Assembly: GCF_024758505.1 (NCBI RefSeq)
Contig: NZ_CP077970.1
Span: 3,720,001 to 3,784,000, forward strand
Source of the DNA: Bradyrhizobium arachidis
GTDB lineage: Bacteria > Pseudomonadota > Alphaproteobacteria > Rhizobiales > Xanthobacteraceae
Length of the DNA: 64,000 nucleotides
Direction: 5' to 3'
Positions 16,958-20,897 of this stretch are shown here, one piece after another. Position 1 is the first letter of the stretch; each line of letters starts with the position of its first letter. The position numbers and the translations under genes were made by a program. The notes below the pieces were generated by a model. It saw nothing but the letters and a program-made list of their open reading frames with translations, searched no databases and was not told the origin of the DNA.

Positions 16958-16975
16958 TGTGACGATCGCGTCACA
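16958..16975. promoter_or_regulatory. Inverted repeat upstream of the sigma-54 promoter (candidate activator site)
   Basis: TGTGACG-ATCG-CGTCACA, 7-bp perfect arms with a 4-base spacer, lies 28 bases upstream of the sigma-54-type element and just after the LysR stop codon. Enhancer-binding proteins bind dyads upstream of sigma-54 promoters, so this is a candidate site for an RtcR-type or other activator. No such activator gene is in the window. The distance is shorter than typical (~80-200 bp), so a roadblock or LysR-related role is also possible. Confidence 0.45.
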
Positions 16976-17002
16976 GCGCAAGATGAGCGACGAAAAATCT
17001 TG

Positions 17003-17018
17003 CGGCACCCCCCTTGCA
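17003..17018 (+). promoter_or_regulatory. Sigma-54 (RpoN) type -24/-12 promoter
   Basis: Seen: CGGCACCCCCCTTGCA, with GG at 17004-17005 and GC at 17016-17017, the required 10-bp gap between them, plus the flanking CAC and TTG-A of the consensus TGGCAC-N5-TTGCW. Predicted start near 17029, just before the structured leader with tRNA-like modules. Known: bacterial rtcBA operons in enterobacteria are sigma-54 dependent and activated by RtcR. The match at exactly this place is therefore meaningful, although such motifs can occur by chance. Confidence 0.65.
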
Positions 17019-17130
17019 ACCCGGACGTGCTTCGTCTATTAGCGCGCTCCTTCGCTAGGCCATGTGTCCGGGCTCTCTGAGATCCCGGCTGGCGCGTACC
17101 GGCTTCCGGTGTCGTGTTCCGCCGAACGAA

Positions 17131-17211
17131 GGACAAAAGCAGGATGTAGCTCATGGAGAGCGTCGGGCTGAACACCCGAAGGCATCGGTTCGATTCCGGT
17201 CTCTTGTCCCA
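17131..17211 (+). ncRNA. tRNA-Phe(GAA)-like RNA module 1
   Basis: Seen: D-arm GCTC/GAGC (17149-17161) with a shortened 5-base loop; perfect 5-bp anticodon arm TCGGG/CCCGA (17163-17179) with loop CTGAACA, U33 and anticodon GAA at 17170-17172; 4-base variable loop; T-arm ATCGG-TTCGATT-CCGGT (17184-17200); acceptor-like strands GGACAAAAG (17131-17139) and CTCTTGTCC (17201-17209), 8 of 9 paired; CCA at 17209-17211. Odd: seven extra bases (CAGGATG) lie between acceptor strand and the TA before the D-arm, the discriminator would be C, and position 37 is C. A normal elongator tRNA is therefore unlikely. It resembles tRNA-like domains of bacterial Y RNAs or a decayed tRNA. Confidence 0.65.
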
Positions 17212-17285
17212 CAAAGGATAGCTCAGTTGGGTAGAGCAGGTGACGTTGAAATCATCGGGTCGCGGGTTCGAATCCCGCTCCAAGC
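17212..17285 (+). ncRNA. tRNA-Phe(GAA)-like RNA module 2
   Basis: It abuts module 1. Seen: TA then D-arm GCTC-AGTTGGGTA-GAGC (17221-17237) with a canonical GG-containing loop; anticodon arm GGTGA/TCATC (17239-17256) with an 8-base loop containing T-GAA-A (GAA at 17248-17250); 5-base variable region; perfect T-arm GCGGG-TTCGAAT-CCCGC (17262-17278). The acceptor is broken: CAAAGGA against TCCAAGC leaves only three inner pairs, and no CCA follows. It keeps the elbow (D and T loops) and the Phe anticodon but cannot be aminoacylated as a normal tRNA in this form. Confidence 0.6.
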
Positions 17286-17293
17286 GCTCCGTT

Positions 17294-17310
17294 TCAGCCT
17301 GAAAAGCTGA
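17294..17310 (+). ncRNA. Third GAA anticodon-like stem-loop
   Basis: A perfect 5-bp stem TCAGC/GCTGA encloses a 7-base loop CTGAAAA, the exact layout of a tRNA-Phe anticodon arm (C32 U33 GAA A37). No clear D- or T-arm surrounds it, although a weak CTTCAGT loop between GCG and CGC lies 3' (17334-17346). It may be a remnant or a minimal mimic of the same arm. Confidence 0.45.
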
Positions 17311-17618
17311 TTCCTCTGACGAGGACCGGACGCGCGCTTCAGTCGCAGTCCGGCCGTTTTGCCGAAAGGCTTTCCGTCCGAACCTAGACACTGTGAGACC
17401 GGCTTCGCGCCGCGGTGGATACCGCTTGCGCTGATGCCGGGTAGCTCCGCACGGCCACGCGACCTTTGTCGCGTGATCGCGCGCGTGCGCCCGTCATCGC
17501 GCAGGCTCAAGCCTCGGCCCGCCGATTTTTTCAGGAAGCGTCGTCCGCGTCCTCACGTCTTTTGCAAACGAAACCTGTTGCCCGGCATCCGGCCGGGCGC
17601 AAATGAAGGAGGCGTGCC

Positions 17619-18770
17619 ATGAGTTGGCATTTGCTGACGCTGAACGTGACGGTGAAGGATGGCGAGCGTGCATTGCTGACGCGCAATGGGCTGCTCGTGC
17701 GCGTGCTCGCGCCCGGCCGGCATCGCCTGTTCGATCCCCTGCATGAGTTGAAGGCCGAAGTGCTGAACGTGGTCCGCAGCGAATTCCCCGCGGATCGCTA
17801 TGCGGTGCTGAAGGCCGCGCGGCCCGATCTCGCCGCCGAGCTGTTCGAGGCGGTCGAGACCGGGGCTGACGAGGTTGCCATCGTCAGCCTCGATGGCCGG
17901 CCCGTACACCTGCTCACGCCCTGGCAGATCCGCGTCTACTGGAAGGTCGCGACCCGCATCGATGTCGAGCGCATCGATGTGTCCAGCGATCCCCGGATCG
18001 GTGCGCGGCACCTGGCCATGATCGAGCGCAACCGTGCGACCATCTCGATGGAAGCGGTGGTCGAGAACCACGAAGCGGGCCTGCTCTATGTCGAGGGTCG
18101 GCTCGTGGAGCGGCTCGCGCCTGGCCGGCACGCTTTCTGGACCGTCGGTCGCAAGATCGAGGTCAAGCGCCTCGACCTGCGGCCCCAGGCGGTCGAGATC
18201 ACGGCGCAGGAGATGCTGACCAAGGATCGCATCGCGCTGCGGGTGACGCTGACGGCGTTCCGCCGGGTGGTCGATCCCGAGCGGACGGTTGCGACCGTGC
18301 CCGACGTGGATGCGTGGCTGTACCGCCTGGTGCAGTTCGCGATCCGCGAGGCGGTGGCCGGCCGCACGCTGGACGAGGTGCTGTCTGCGAAGGCAGCGCT
18401 GGATGCGGAGCTGCGCGACTATGTGCGCGCACGCGTCGCGGAGTCTGGCGTCGAGGTGACGGAACTCGGCGTGAAGGACGTGATCCTGCCCGGCGAGATC
18501 CGTGAGCTCGTCAACAAGGTGGTGGAGGCGGAGCGGGTCGCCAAGGCGAACCTGATCCGCCGGCAGGAAGAGACCGCGGCGACGCGTTCGCTTCTCAACA
18601 CCGCCCGCCTGATGGAGGAGAACCCCCTGCTGCTGCGGCTCAAGGAGCTGGAGTCGCTGGAGCGGCTGGTCGAGAAGGTCGGCCGCATCGACCTCCATGC
18701 CGGCGACGGCGAGGGCCTCGATGCCCTCTTGACCCGGCTCGTGCGCCTGAAGGCGCCCGAGAGCGCGTGA
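17619..18770 (+). CDS. Slipin / SPFH (band 7) family protein
   Basis: 383 residues with a strong GAAGGAGG site. Seen: an SPFH-type N-terminal part with two related segments (VKDGERALLTRNGLLVRVLAPGRHRLFD ~11-38 and VENHEAGLLYVEGRLVERLAPGRHAFW ~148-174), then VKRLDLRPQAVEITAQEMLTKDRIALRVTLTAF and the helical EVTELGVKDVILPGEIRELVNKVVEAERVAKANLIRRQEE assembly region (~270-320). No convincing membrane helix is seen, unlike most slipins. SPFH proteins form large oligomeric scaffolds, and slipins are recurrent neighbours of RtcB. First gene after the tRNA-like leader; likely a scaffold for the repair system (inference). Confidence 0.88.
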   Translation: MSWHLLTLNVTVKDGERALLTRNGLLVRVLAPGRHRLFDPLHELKAEVLNVVRSEFPADRYAVLKAARPDLAAELFEAVETGADEVAIVSLDGRPVHLLTPWQIRVYWKVATRIDVERIDVSSDPRIGARHLAMIERNRATISMEAVVENHEAGLLYVEGRLVERLAPGRHAFWTVGRKIEVKRLDLRPQAVEITAQEMLTKDRIALRVTLTAFRRVVDPERTVATVPDVDAWLYRLVQFAIREAVAGRTLDEVLSAKAALDAELRDYVRARVAESGVEVTELGVKDVILPGEIRELVNKVVEAERVAKANLIRRQEETAATRSLLNTARLMEENPLLLRLKELESLERLVEKVGRIDLHAGDGEGLDALLTRLVRLKAPESA

Positions 18771-18778
18771 GACCTAAG

Positions 18779-18802
18779 AAGGGCCGCCCACGGGCGGCCC
18801 TT
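18779..18802. terminator. GC-rich hairpin, copy 1 of 3 (after slipin)
   Basis: A perfect 10-bp inverted repeat AAGGGCCGCC-CACG-GGCGGCCCTT begins 8 bases after the slipin stop codon. A-tracts on one side and TT on the other make it resemble a bidirectional terminator, but the weak T tail (TTCATT) and its position inside an apparent operon fit partial termination or 3'-end protection as well. Near-identical copies follow the next two genes. Confidence 0.75.
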
Positions 18803-18834
18803 CATTGAGGGAGAATATACGTTAGGAGGCCACT

Positions 18835-19419
18835 ATGGCTGAAATTTATTGGAGCGCGGACAACATCGCCACGATCGCCGGTTTCCTCTCGGCAGCCGAA
18901 TGCGAGGACTATGTCCGGCTGGGTGAAGCGACCGGCTTCGAAGAAGCCCCCATCACCACGTCCAGGGGCATGATCCTGATGAAGGACGTGCGCAACAACG
19001 ACCGGGTCATGATTGATGATCCGGAGCGAGCGCTTGCGCTCTATCGGAAGCTCTCCGGTGAACTGGCGCCGAGATTCGAGAGAACATGGACCCCGGTCGG
19101 GTTCAACGAGCGGCTCCGTCTGTACCGTTACGATGTCGGGCAGCAGTTCGACTGGCATCGCGACGGCTATTTCCAGCGGCCGAACGGAGAACGCAGCTTC
19201 TTCACGTTCATGGTCTATCTGAACGACGACTACGAGGGCGGCGCGACGTCGTTCAGCGACAATGGCTCCAGCCTCGGCCGGCCCATTCGCATCACGCCGG
19301 CGATGGGGATGGGACTTCTGTTCCATCATCCGATCGTGCATCGCGGCGATCCCGTCGTGGCGGGGCGCAAATACGTGCTGCGAACGGATGTGATGTACCG
19401 TCGCGTCGCGGCGACATGA
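18835..19419 (+). CDS. Prolyl-4-hydroxylase-like Fe(II)/2-oxoglutarate oxygenase
   Basis: 194 residues, ATG preceded by AGGAGG. Seen: the double-stranded beta-helix iron triad His108-x-Asp110 in FDWHRDGYF and distal His169 in FHHPIVHRGDPVVAGRKYVLRTDVMY, with Lys179 ten residues later as the expected 2-oxoglutarate ligand (P4H type). LRLYRYDVGQQF and FFTFMVYLNDDYEGGATSF are the usual P4H core strands. Cytosolic. It sits between slipin and rtcB, each separated by a copy of the same hairpin. Its substrate is unknown: a protein (ribosomal, slipin or RtcB) or a nucleic acid component of the system are possibilities. Confidence 0.9.
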   Translation: MAEIYWSADNIATIAGFLSAAECEDYVRLGEATGFEEAPITTSRGMILMKDVRNNDRVMIDDPERALALYRKLSGELAPRFERTWTPVGFNERLRLYRYDVGQQFDWHRDGYFQRPNGERSFFTFMVYLNDDYEGGATSFSDNGSSLGRPIRITPAMGMGLLFHHPIVHRGDPVVAGRKYVLRTDVMYRRVAAT

Positions 19420-19421
19420 CG

Positions 19422-19445
19422 AAGGGCCGCCCAAGGGCGGCTCTT
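19422..19445. terminator. GC-rich hairpin, copy 2 of 3 (after oxygenase gene)
   Basis: AAGGGCCGCC-CAAG-GGCGGCTCTT, 10-bp stem with one G-T pair, begins 2 bases after the oxygenase stop codon. The arm sequence is the same as copies 1 and 3, which follow the flanking genes. Confidence 0.75.
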
Positions 19446-19513
19446 CACCACATGAACGCAGTTGCGGCAAGACGCAACTGAAGCTTGGATCGAATTTACC
19501 GGAGTGTCCCAAA

Positions 19514-20857
19514 ATGATTGACGGAAACACGCTGATCGCCTGGGGTTTTGCACCGGGCCGCTGGTTCAGGGACGCCCTGGAGACCGCCAACGCCATGCGT
19601 GCCGGCGGCGCGGACGACGATGCGATCTTCATCGCTCTTCAGACCTTGCAGCCGATCGAAACGCTGATGCGGACGAACGGCATTCCGTTCTCGATGCTGA
19701 TCGAGGCGGAGAACGAGGTGGAACGCGCCAACGTCACGGCGGTGGCCCAGCACATGGATGCGTTGATGCGCGTGCCGACCATCATGGCTGGCGCCGTGAT
19801 GCCTGACGCCTGTCCGTCAGGGACAGCACTCGGAACCATCCCGGTTGGCGGCGTCGTCGCATGCGACGACGCGATCCATCCCGGCTTCCACTCCTCCGAC
19901 ATCTGCTGCTCGGTCGCCATCACGGTGTTCGGCCGTAGGGATGATCCGAAGCGGGTTCTCGATGCCGTTCACGATGTCACGCATTTCGGTCCAGGCGGCC
20001 GCGACGGAATCCGCATGCCGCCTGACGAGGTGATGGCGGGGTTCGATCGTAATCCCTTCCTGAAAGGGCTCGAGCGGTTTGCGATCGGTCACTTCGCCAC
20101 CCAGGGCGACGGCAACCACTTTGCGTTCGTCGGCCATCTCAAGTCGACGGGCCATGTGGCGCTGGTGACGCATCATGGCTCCCGTGGTCTCGGCGCTCAA
20201 GTCTACAAGCGCGGAATGGCGGTTGCGAGGAAGCATACCGCGATCCACGCGCCGAAGGTCCCGAACCACAACGCCTGGATCAAGGCATCGAGCGATGACG
20301 GACGAGCCTATTGGGAGGCGTTGCAGATCGTGCGGGGCTGGACCAAAGCCAATCACATCGCGATTCACGATCTCACGGCCGCGCGCCTCGGCAATGCGAT
20401 CGCTGATCGTTTCTGGAACGAGCACAACTTCGTGTTCCGGAAGGCAGATGGTCTTTTCTATCACGGAAAGGGAGCCACCCCGAGCTGGGCCGGCTTCTCG
20501 GAGGACGACGACGGGCGCACCCTCGTGCCGCTCAACATGGCGGAGCCCGTCCTGATCCTCAGGCATAGGGATAACAGGAGTGCGCTCGGCTTCGCTCCCC
20601 ATGGAGCCGGGCGCAACGTTGGACGCAAGGCCTTCCTGCGCGAGAACAAGCCGCAGCTTCCGGCTGGAATTGACGCTCGTTTCTACTGCGGCAAACCCGA
20701 CCTGTCAGAGCTGCCGCAGGCCTACAAGAACGCCGCTTCCGTGCGTTCGCAGATCACGAAGTACGGTCTCGGCGAGGTGATTGATGAGGTGATCCCGTAC
20801 GGCTCAATCATGGCCGGCGATTGGGAAGCCGAGGCGCCTTGGCGCAAGCGCGGGTGA
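19514..20857 (+). CDS. rtcB: RtcB-family RNA ligase
   Basis: 447 residues. Seen: Mn-binding region GGVVACDDAIHPGFHSSDICCSVA with Asp129 and Cys132 in the place of the DxxC of RtcB; GDGNHFAFVG; THHGSRGLGAQVYKRGM; and HGAGRN with His363, the residue that is guanylylated in the family. The motifs diverge from the E. coli protein (CDDAIHPGFHSSD instead of GVDIGCG), marking a distinct subgroup. RtcB joins 2',3'-cyclic-phosphate/3'-phosphate ends to 5'-OH ends using GTP, the ends left by anticodon nucleases and other ribotoxins. No rtcA, archease, rsr or rtcR gene is in the window. Last gene of the operon. Confidence 0.93.
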   Translation: MIDGNTLIAWGFAPGRWFRDALETANAMRAGGADDDAIFIALQTLQPIETLMRTNGIPFSMLIEAENEVERANVTAVAQHMDALMRVPTIMAGAVMPDACPSGTALGTIPVGGVVACDDAIHPGFHSSDICCSVAITVFGRRDDPKRVLDAVHDVTHFGPGGRDGIRMPPDEVMAGFDRNPFLKGLERFAIGHFATQGDGNHFAFVGHLKSTGHVALVTHHGSRGLGAQVYKRGMAVARKHTAIHAPKVPNHNAWIKASSDDGRAYWEALQIVRGWTKANHIAIHDLTAARLGNAIADRFWNEHNFVFRKADGLFYHGKGATPSWAGFSEDDDGRTLVPLNMAEPVLILRHRDNRSALGFAPHGAGRNVGRKAFLRENKPQLPAGIDARFYCGKPDLSELPQAYKNAASVRSQITKYGLGEVIDEVIPYGSIMAGDWEAEAPWRKRG

Positions 20858-20873
20858 GGGTGCATGAATCAGG

Positions 20874-20897
20874 AAGGGCCGCCCACAGGCGGCCCTT
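20874..20897. terminator. GC-rich hairpin, copy 3 of 3 (after rtcB)
   Basis: AAGGGCCGCC-CACA-GGCGGCCCTT, perfect 10-bp stem, lies between the convergent stop codons of rtcB (20857) and the autotransporter (20901). Here a bidirectional terminator is the natural reading. Confidence 0.8.

Follow-up and report, generated by a model that had tools for sequence, protein, structure and literature searches.

In a 64,000-nucleotide stretch of the Bradyrhizobium arachidis genome (contig NZ_CP077970.1, positions 3,720,001 to 3,784,000; hereafter the window, with positions counted from its first letter), we analyzed a locus in which a dyad and a promoter are followed by a leader of about 570 bases with two tandem tRNA-like modules, and then by genes for a slipin, a 2-oxoglutarate (2OG)-Fe(II) oxygenase and a divergent RtcB RNA ligase. 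Leader and slipin form the constant unit of this locus, and RtcB and the oxygenase are recurrent additions. Sequence comparison supports two cloverleaves, their tie to the slipin, weak acceptor stems and a fast-changing anticodon loop in module 2, and it indicates a widespread family of leader RNAs in which this loop is hypervariable, with A37 and mostly U33 kept. We tentatively regard the locus as an alphaproteobacterial form of an RNA-repair module, the constant part of which is the tandem tRNA-mimic leader plus a soluble SPFH protein.

Leader and slipin occur together

The leader and the slipin gene are composed as follows.

17048–17133, + strand: 5' conserved leader domain with hairpins, from its conservation; predicted closing helix UCCUUCG/CGAAGGA
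17139–17207, + strand: tRNA-like module 1 (Rfam tRNA, 44.4 bits; covariation)
17216–17281, + strand: tRNA-like module 2 (Rfam tRNA, 43.2 bits; covariation), with a 3-bp acceptor stem and a hypervariable anticodon loop
17324–17356, + strand: conserved block with a hairpin, ACCGGAC...GTCCGGCCG; identity across the 90 leaders is at least 97% in most columns
17387–17424, + strand: second conserved leader block, 5' of the slipin, from conservation in the leaders
17619–18770, + strand: slipin, SPFH/Band_7 (Pfam PF01145, 110.1 bits)

Within the genus, the slipin was found in 94/265 genomes (E up to 1e-30). The full leader (at least 197 bits) is present in 92 of these 94 and in none of the 171 genomes without slipin, and the two slipin genomes without a full leader hold slipin fragments only. 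From 93 genus relatives, 89 leaders were retrieved after exclusion of four with broken slipin genes, giving 90 leaders with the window. As a separate observation, one locus of the same genus (L335:6045-7632) carries leader pieces only, with no slipin match found.

Beyond the genus, we used a covariance model (R1) built from both modules. Ordinary tRNA clusters also score with R1, up to 62.2 bits, so that lower matches mean tRNA-like and not membership of the leader family. In a survey of the order, 47/397 genomes showed a slipin match (E up to 1e-20); 40 places reached at least 233 bits, 37 of them outside the genus. R1 was run on 38 of the 40 (L338-L365 and L366-L375, L338 being from the genus) and matched upstream on the slipin strand in 27/28 and 10/10 places, respectively, which corresponds to 36/37 outside the genus. 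Among these 37 places, 31 scored at least 45 bits and 25 exceeded 62.2 bits, above any ordinary tRNA cluster seen; weak matches of 17–37 bits were obtained for L352, L353, L354, L365 and L374. The single miss (L355) has fewer than 500 contig bases 5' of the slipin. Seven of the 37 slipins belong to training rows of the model, and 29 of the other 30 matched as well. The R1-positive loci of the order carry 15 family labels, 14 of which are represented above 62.2 bits.

The two modules form covarying cloverleaves

The sequence-only reading of the window had described two tandem tRNA-Phe-like modules and had proposed a check of the leader by conservation and covariance. Rfam tRNA matches both modules above the gathering score of 29, whereas ARAGORN calls one tRNA-Phe in the window (17139–17211). 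A Phe module is called in 31/90 leaders; elsewhere the module reads otherwise or goes uncalled. Phe identity is therefore no fixed feature of the leader, and of the original description the two tRNA-like modules stand.

Covariation was assessed in an alignment of 92 sequences, comprising 85 genus rows (the 90 leaders without four repeats and L299, in which module 1 is mostly missing) and seven from other families. Over the 37 pairs of both cloverleaves, 96.3% of cells are paired and 19 pairs show double changes; none of 500 shuffles reached any observed value, and slid structures were 37–53% paired. The 26 order-level leaders, 18 of them outside the training set, gave 97.7% paired cells, double changes in 26/37 pairs, and changes on both sides in 198 cells vs 56 in shuffles. 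This second alignment was fitted to the covariance model and leans to stronger matches: 27 of the 38 loci entered (all except L352, L353, L354, L355, L358, L365, L367, L369, L371, L372 and L375), and L374 then fell below the threshold. The cloverleaves covary in both alignments. The minimum-energy fold of the window leader as a single sequence does not show them (z −0.87), so that their support comes from covariation and not from single-sequence folding. Two cloverleaves with covariation lie upstream of the slipin, which makes the locus a tandem tRNA-like–slipin unit.

The D and T arms belong to the most constant portions of the leader. The acceptor stems fall short of the 7 bp of a tRNA, with six pairs in module 1 (85.4% of cells paired) and three in module 2; because of its 3-bp stem, module 2 should not be chargeable. 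Both modules score as tRNA, as would be expected if they were what remained of ordinary tRNA genes after an integration event; covariation and conservation over the 15 family labels already contradict this origin, which we consider extremely improbable.

The anticodon loop of module 2 is hypervariable

In module 2, the anticodon loop has seven bases in 81/92 sequences. These 81 loops contain U33 in 63 cases, A37 in 79, and 20 different triplets at positions 34–36. Mapped on the slipin tree, the loop columns changed 20, 19, 33, 16, 1, 28, 1 and 17 times, so that six of eight columns show at least 16 changes, compared with a mean of 1.1 in stems and 4.5 in other unpaired columns (Mann-Whitney p 0.0005). 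Of the 26 order-level loops, 23 have seven bases; U33 is present in 19 and A37 in 18, and there are 13 triplets.

Such variation would also be seen if the cloverleaves were entry sites for RNase P and RNase E that free or insulate the slipin mRNA, leaving the anticodon loops unread. The constancy of the D and T arms is as expected if elbow-reading enzymes matter, and within module 2 it is the loop that varies most. Against this stand the retention of two modules, the strong covariation that includes both anticodon stems, and the preserved length of seven and A37 of the module-2 loop; we rate this explanation as unlikely.

Related units in beta- and gammaproteobacteria

A plasmid collection contained nine records with the slipin subfamily at 32–42% identity, four of which were examined (L386 from E. 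coli, L387 from Citrobacter, L388 from Burkholderia cenocepacia, L389 from Photobacterium). Tandem tRNA-like modules precede the slipin in Burkholderia (R1 71.2 bits) and Photobacterium (R1 96.2 bits; Rfam tRNA 54.1 and 46.4 bits for the modules), and both records share the order rtcR (divergent), two tRNA-like modules, slipin, RtcB. RlaP, an RNA-repair nucleotidyltransferase family, is encoded 3' of RtcB in Burkholderia and 3' of the slipin on the Citrobacter plasmid, where rtcR is divergent from slipin–RlaP. The E. coli and Citrobacter leaders retain one T-arm-like GGGTTCGATTCCCA. At least 80% of the leader–slipin stretch of the E. coli record is present in 1621/5426 E. coli genomes. In two E. 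coli records (L386, L390), a gene annotated with a nucleotidyltransferase domain lies 3' of the slipin, and by analogy with the Citrobacter plasmid it may be RlaP.

The link to RNA repair that had been proposed for the locus holds: rtcR, the two tRNA-like modules, slipin and RtcB are found together in Burkholderia and Photobacterium, and there is a precedent in Pelobacter (PMC3543383).

Promoter of the leader

Upstream of the leader, the following elements were assigned.

16959–16974, unstranded: dyad GTGACG-ATCG-CGTCAC (GTGACGATCGCGTCAC), 5' of the promoter; columns 30–90% conserved in 90 leaders
17003–17017, + strand: apparent sigma-54 −24/−12 box GGCAC-N5-TTGC, most likely a chance feature of the window genome
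17014–17042, + strand: putative sigma-70-type promoter TTGCAA-17-TATTAG, with a start predicted at about 17048

The dyad was correctly recognized from the sequence. The same reading had placed the locus under sigma-54/RtcR control in the manner of the Salmonella rsr-yrlBA-rtcBA operon. In support of this, rtcR lies divergent from the unit in Burkholderia and Photobacterium, and a TGGCACG box with a −12 GC occurs in the E. coli, Citrobacter and Burkholderia records. The box sequence is indeed present in the window, yet GG at −24 with the right spacing is found in 1/90 leaders, namely the window itself, and the −24 positions are among the fastest-changing leader columns, with 27–35 changes on the slipin tree for each of positions 17003–17008 vs 0–9 per position of the −35 hexamer. 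Among 32 leaders of other genera, a sigma-54 box with at most two mismatches occurred once (Burkholderia), compared with 1.65 in shuffles. A search with the RtcR family PF06956 gave no match in the window genome, and the E. coli positive control matched. We therefore reject a sigma-54 promoter for the window and regard a repair operon of this regulatory type as very improbable.

The window genome likely uses the sigma-70-type promoter, as suggested by its conservation. TTGCAA is present in 73/90 leaders, and conservation of T17037 and A17038 is 97% or higher. All 55 leaders with CTA at −10 have a 17-base spacer; the other 35 are without CTA and mostly carry TTTATT or similar. A promoter scan based on the E. 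coli consensus gave no hits, at the TTGCAA-TATTAG site or otherwise.

The conserved promoter 5' of the modules, the fixed position of the leader upstream of the slipin on the same strand, and the conserved hairpin blocks between module 2 and the slipin would all suit a cis-acting sensor. The mimics, as part of the 5' leader of the slipin mRNA, would then be substrates of anticodon nucleases or binding sites for tRNA-handling proteins, and this would alter how stable the slipin message is or how well it is translated, with the same effect on RtcB where present. We consider such a sensor possible, though doubtful.

RtcB and oxygenase as recurrent additions

Downstream of the slipin, the window contains two further genes, and near-identical hairpins follow each of the three genes, as had been noted from the sequence.

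18780–18801, unstranded: GC hairpin 3' of slipin
18835–19419, + strand: accessory prolyl-4-hydroxylase-like 2OG-Fe(II) oxygenase (Pfam PF13640, 46.6 bits; PDB 3itq)
19423–19444, unstranded: GC hairpin 3' of oxygenase
19514–20857, + strand: divergent RtcB RNA ligase, termed A-type (Pfam PF01139, 94.2 bits)
20875–20896, unstranded: GC hairpin 3' of RtcB

The original assignments as slipin, Fe/2OG hydroxylase and RtcB agree with these Pfam results. By its Pfam domain, the RtcB protein is assigned to the RtcB ligase family (94.2 bits vs a cut-off of 27); it sits below the NCBIfam RtcB cut-offs. It carries HGAGR, GDGNHF and HHGSRG, which we take to be the RtcB catalytic motifs. Two further RtcB genes are present elsewhere in the genome, which consists of one 9.43 Mb contig.

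Hydropathy gave no membrane segment for the slipin (19-residue maximum 0.94). Stomatins usually have a membrane anchor, a feature that the window slipin does not share. The protein contains an internal repeat, and its best relative among solved structures is a stomatin homologue.

The A-type RtcB occurs in 11/265 genus genomes, starting 1.2–4.7 kb downstream of the slipin start in ten of them. Another type of RtcB, with about 30% identity, is found in 52/94 slipin genomes vs 48/171 others (Fisher p 2e-5, ignoring shared ancestry). Either type lies within 20 kb of the slipin in 28/94 genomes, on the same strand in 35/35 places; random placement would give 0.3 such places, a figure that likewise ignores shared ancestry. 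These counts refer to matches of the window A-type RtcB as query, which more distant types may escape; contig ends cut some loci, and nine low-scoring rows (28–38 bits), none within 20 kb of a slipin, are omitted from the distance count. The oxygenase was seen in 10/89 genus relatives; in 29 of the 89, coverage ends about 2.6 kb past the slipin start. In 27 loci of other genera, RtcB, oxygenase and TROVE were not found within the 5–13 kb examined (in seven, the upstream flank is about 1–2 kb), and no RtcR, RlaP or RtcB was found in 38 loci, in which two genomes are represented twice. On these counts, RtcB was rejected as a defining part of the locus. The proposed comparison of gene order in relatives thus singled out leader and slipin as constant, and RtcB and the oxygenase do not belong to the core.

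PADLOC named no defence system at the locus; its single match was a CRISPR-associated 2OG model, on the oxygenase. Phage and viral relatives of the window RtcB exist. A phage origin of the locus was rejected, as tRNAs occur in just 15/80 viral loci and the genus loci keep a conserved place near groEL (47/56 loci with sufficiently long flanks).

A possible role in anticodon damage and repair

Our preferred reading, held tentatively, is that the tRNA mimics serve as bait or guide RNAs in anticodon damage and repair, for which the slipin provides a scaffold and RtcB, if present, the ligase. The mimics, which would not be chargeable, may present tRNA-like anticodon loops to enzymes that cut or mend such loops. 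The slipin could form the oligomeric scaffold of a particle, RtcB, where present, would reseal the cut RNA, and the oxygenase may be an optional modifier. The unit has a divergent rtcR in two of the beta- and gammaproteobacterial relatives, and the window genome, in which RtcR is absent, likely relies on the sigma-70-type promoter.

Several observations weigh against the bait-or-guide reading. The hypervariability of the module-2 loop can also result from absent constraint on it; U33 is missing from 18/81 seven-base loops of this module, and the loops of module 1 span 2–10 bases, so that many cannot be true anticodon loops. R1 covers only module 2 in L358 and L372, and its matches in L369, L374 and L375 are short. 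The E. coli and Citrobacter records lack the two modules, with R1 at no more than 9.6 bits in Citrobacter and without a match in E. coli. Among slipin genomes, 66/94 have no match to the A-type RtcB query within 20 kb; repair at the locus itself is hence not required. A P. aeruginosa mutant deleted for the rtc-linked SPFH gene was unaffected in growth, pyocyanin, protease and biofilm according to the accessible text (PMC13086221).

More speculatively, and with low confidence, the leader may define an RNA family, spread over alpha-, beta- and gammaproteobacteria, of paired unchargeable mimics firmly tied to a soluble SPFH protein, with the slipin as a Ro60-like partner and the module-2 loop under diversifying selection through its use as a bait, guide or sensor directed at anticodon nucleases. 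If so, the slipin would serve the leader RNA as Ro60 serves Y RNAs, and the permuted YrlA fold could have arisen from such a tandem mimic, in which the T arm of one module precedes the D arm of the other. Apart from this speculation, the comparison extends a curiosity of one genome, a mutant tRNA beside rtc genes, to a conserved RNA–protein pair in three proteobacterial classes; it provides a candidate RNA partner for a group of bacterial slipins and allows what tRNA mimics do in RNA repair to be tested via simple deletions.

Comparison with known systems

The Salmonella rsr-yrlBA-rtcBA operon resembles the window locus in clustering tRNA-like RNAs with RtcB, and it differs in its partner Rsr (Ro60), in its RNA, YrlA, and in RtcR control (PMC7790460). 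Membership of the leader in the YrlA family was rejected (RF02553 25.2 bits vs a gathering score of 69; the positive example L114 scores 92.7): the leader has ordinary cloverleaves and not the YrlA fold of a T arm followed by a D arm. Pfam detected no TROVE domain in the three window genes; the TROVE gene of the genome, at C1:4454965, adjoins another RtcB. There the genome possesses a separate cluster of Y-RNA-like RNAs 5' of TROVE, followed by RtcB (L052:5029-8256). The window locus is thus not simply a recomposed Salmonella operon, as had been suggested, since a Y-RNA-like–rsr–rtcB cluster exists separately in its genome and its modules are ordinary cloverleaves. The slipin occupies the place that Rsr has in this cluster and in L066.

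Relatives of the A-type RtcB in other genera frequently come after a TROVE/Ro60 gene, with TROVE on the same strand in 33/80 loci, and in L073 TROVE and RtcB share one open reading frame. The stretch that separates TROVE from RtcB contains R1 matches, some down to 15 bits, in 25 of these 33 loci. YrlA-like RNAs were found in the five loci scanned (L052, L066, L114, L120, L131), with only L114 above gathering. In three rhizobial loci (L114:4949-5990, L120:5128-5990, L131:5198-5990), several YrlA-like RNAs stand in tandem between TROVE and RtcB.

Arrays of tRNA genes were observed in two further loci. In one locus of a metagenome-derived genome (L082:1975-2491), a tandem run of five tRNA genes (Leu, Ser, Leu, Leu, Leu) lies directly 5' of an A-type RtcB relative. 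Another locus (L051:4375-7753; G000:C1:3039374-3042749) holds 22 tandem ARAGORN tRNA genes, most of them low-scoring, with one open reading frame inside that presumably encodes an HNH endonuclease. This array resembles the Anabaena trn operon co-regulated with rtcB and a slipin gene (PMC10272220). In Anabaena, the 26-tRNA operon, rtcB and the slipin gene are all raised upon loss of the repressor TrcR (PMC10272220). As in the window, tRNAs, RtcB and slipin come together, there under one repressor that is released by translational stress; unlike in the window, the genes are unlinked, the tRNA operon is a real one, and TrcR acts as repressor.

An SPFH gene beside rtcB is likewise found in P. aeruginosa, where PaFlo8 lies in the rtc locus among rtcA, rtcB and rtcR; in contrast to the window, the accessible text mentions no tRNA-like RNA there, and the main text is free of the term tRNA (PMC13086221). 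For the tandem leader as a family, we found no published description in a search that left subscription papers, including a 2016 RNA repair survey, mostly outside its reach. In Pelobacter carbinolicus, the mutant tRNA Pcar_R0061, with its cloverleaf kept, lies between rtcR and a stomatin-like–rtcA–rtcB cluster and was suggested by the authors to be a substrate or guide (PMC3543383). The likeness to the window is that a tRNA-like gene whose cloverleaf is kept and whose anticodon is altered stands directly 5' of stomatin-like and rtc genes. The Pelobacter case comprises a single tRNA from a single genome, accompanied by rtcR and rtcA, whereas the window has two modules, an oxygenase and a probable sigma-70-type promoter, and its genome is without rtcR.

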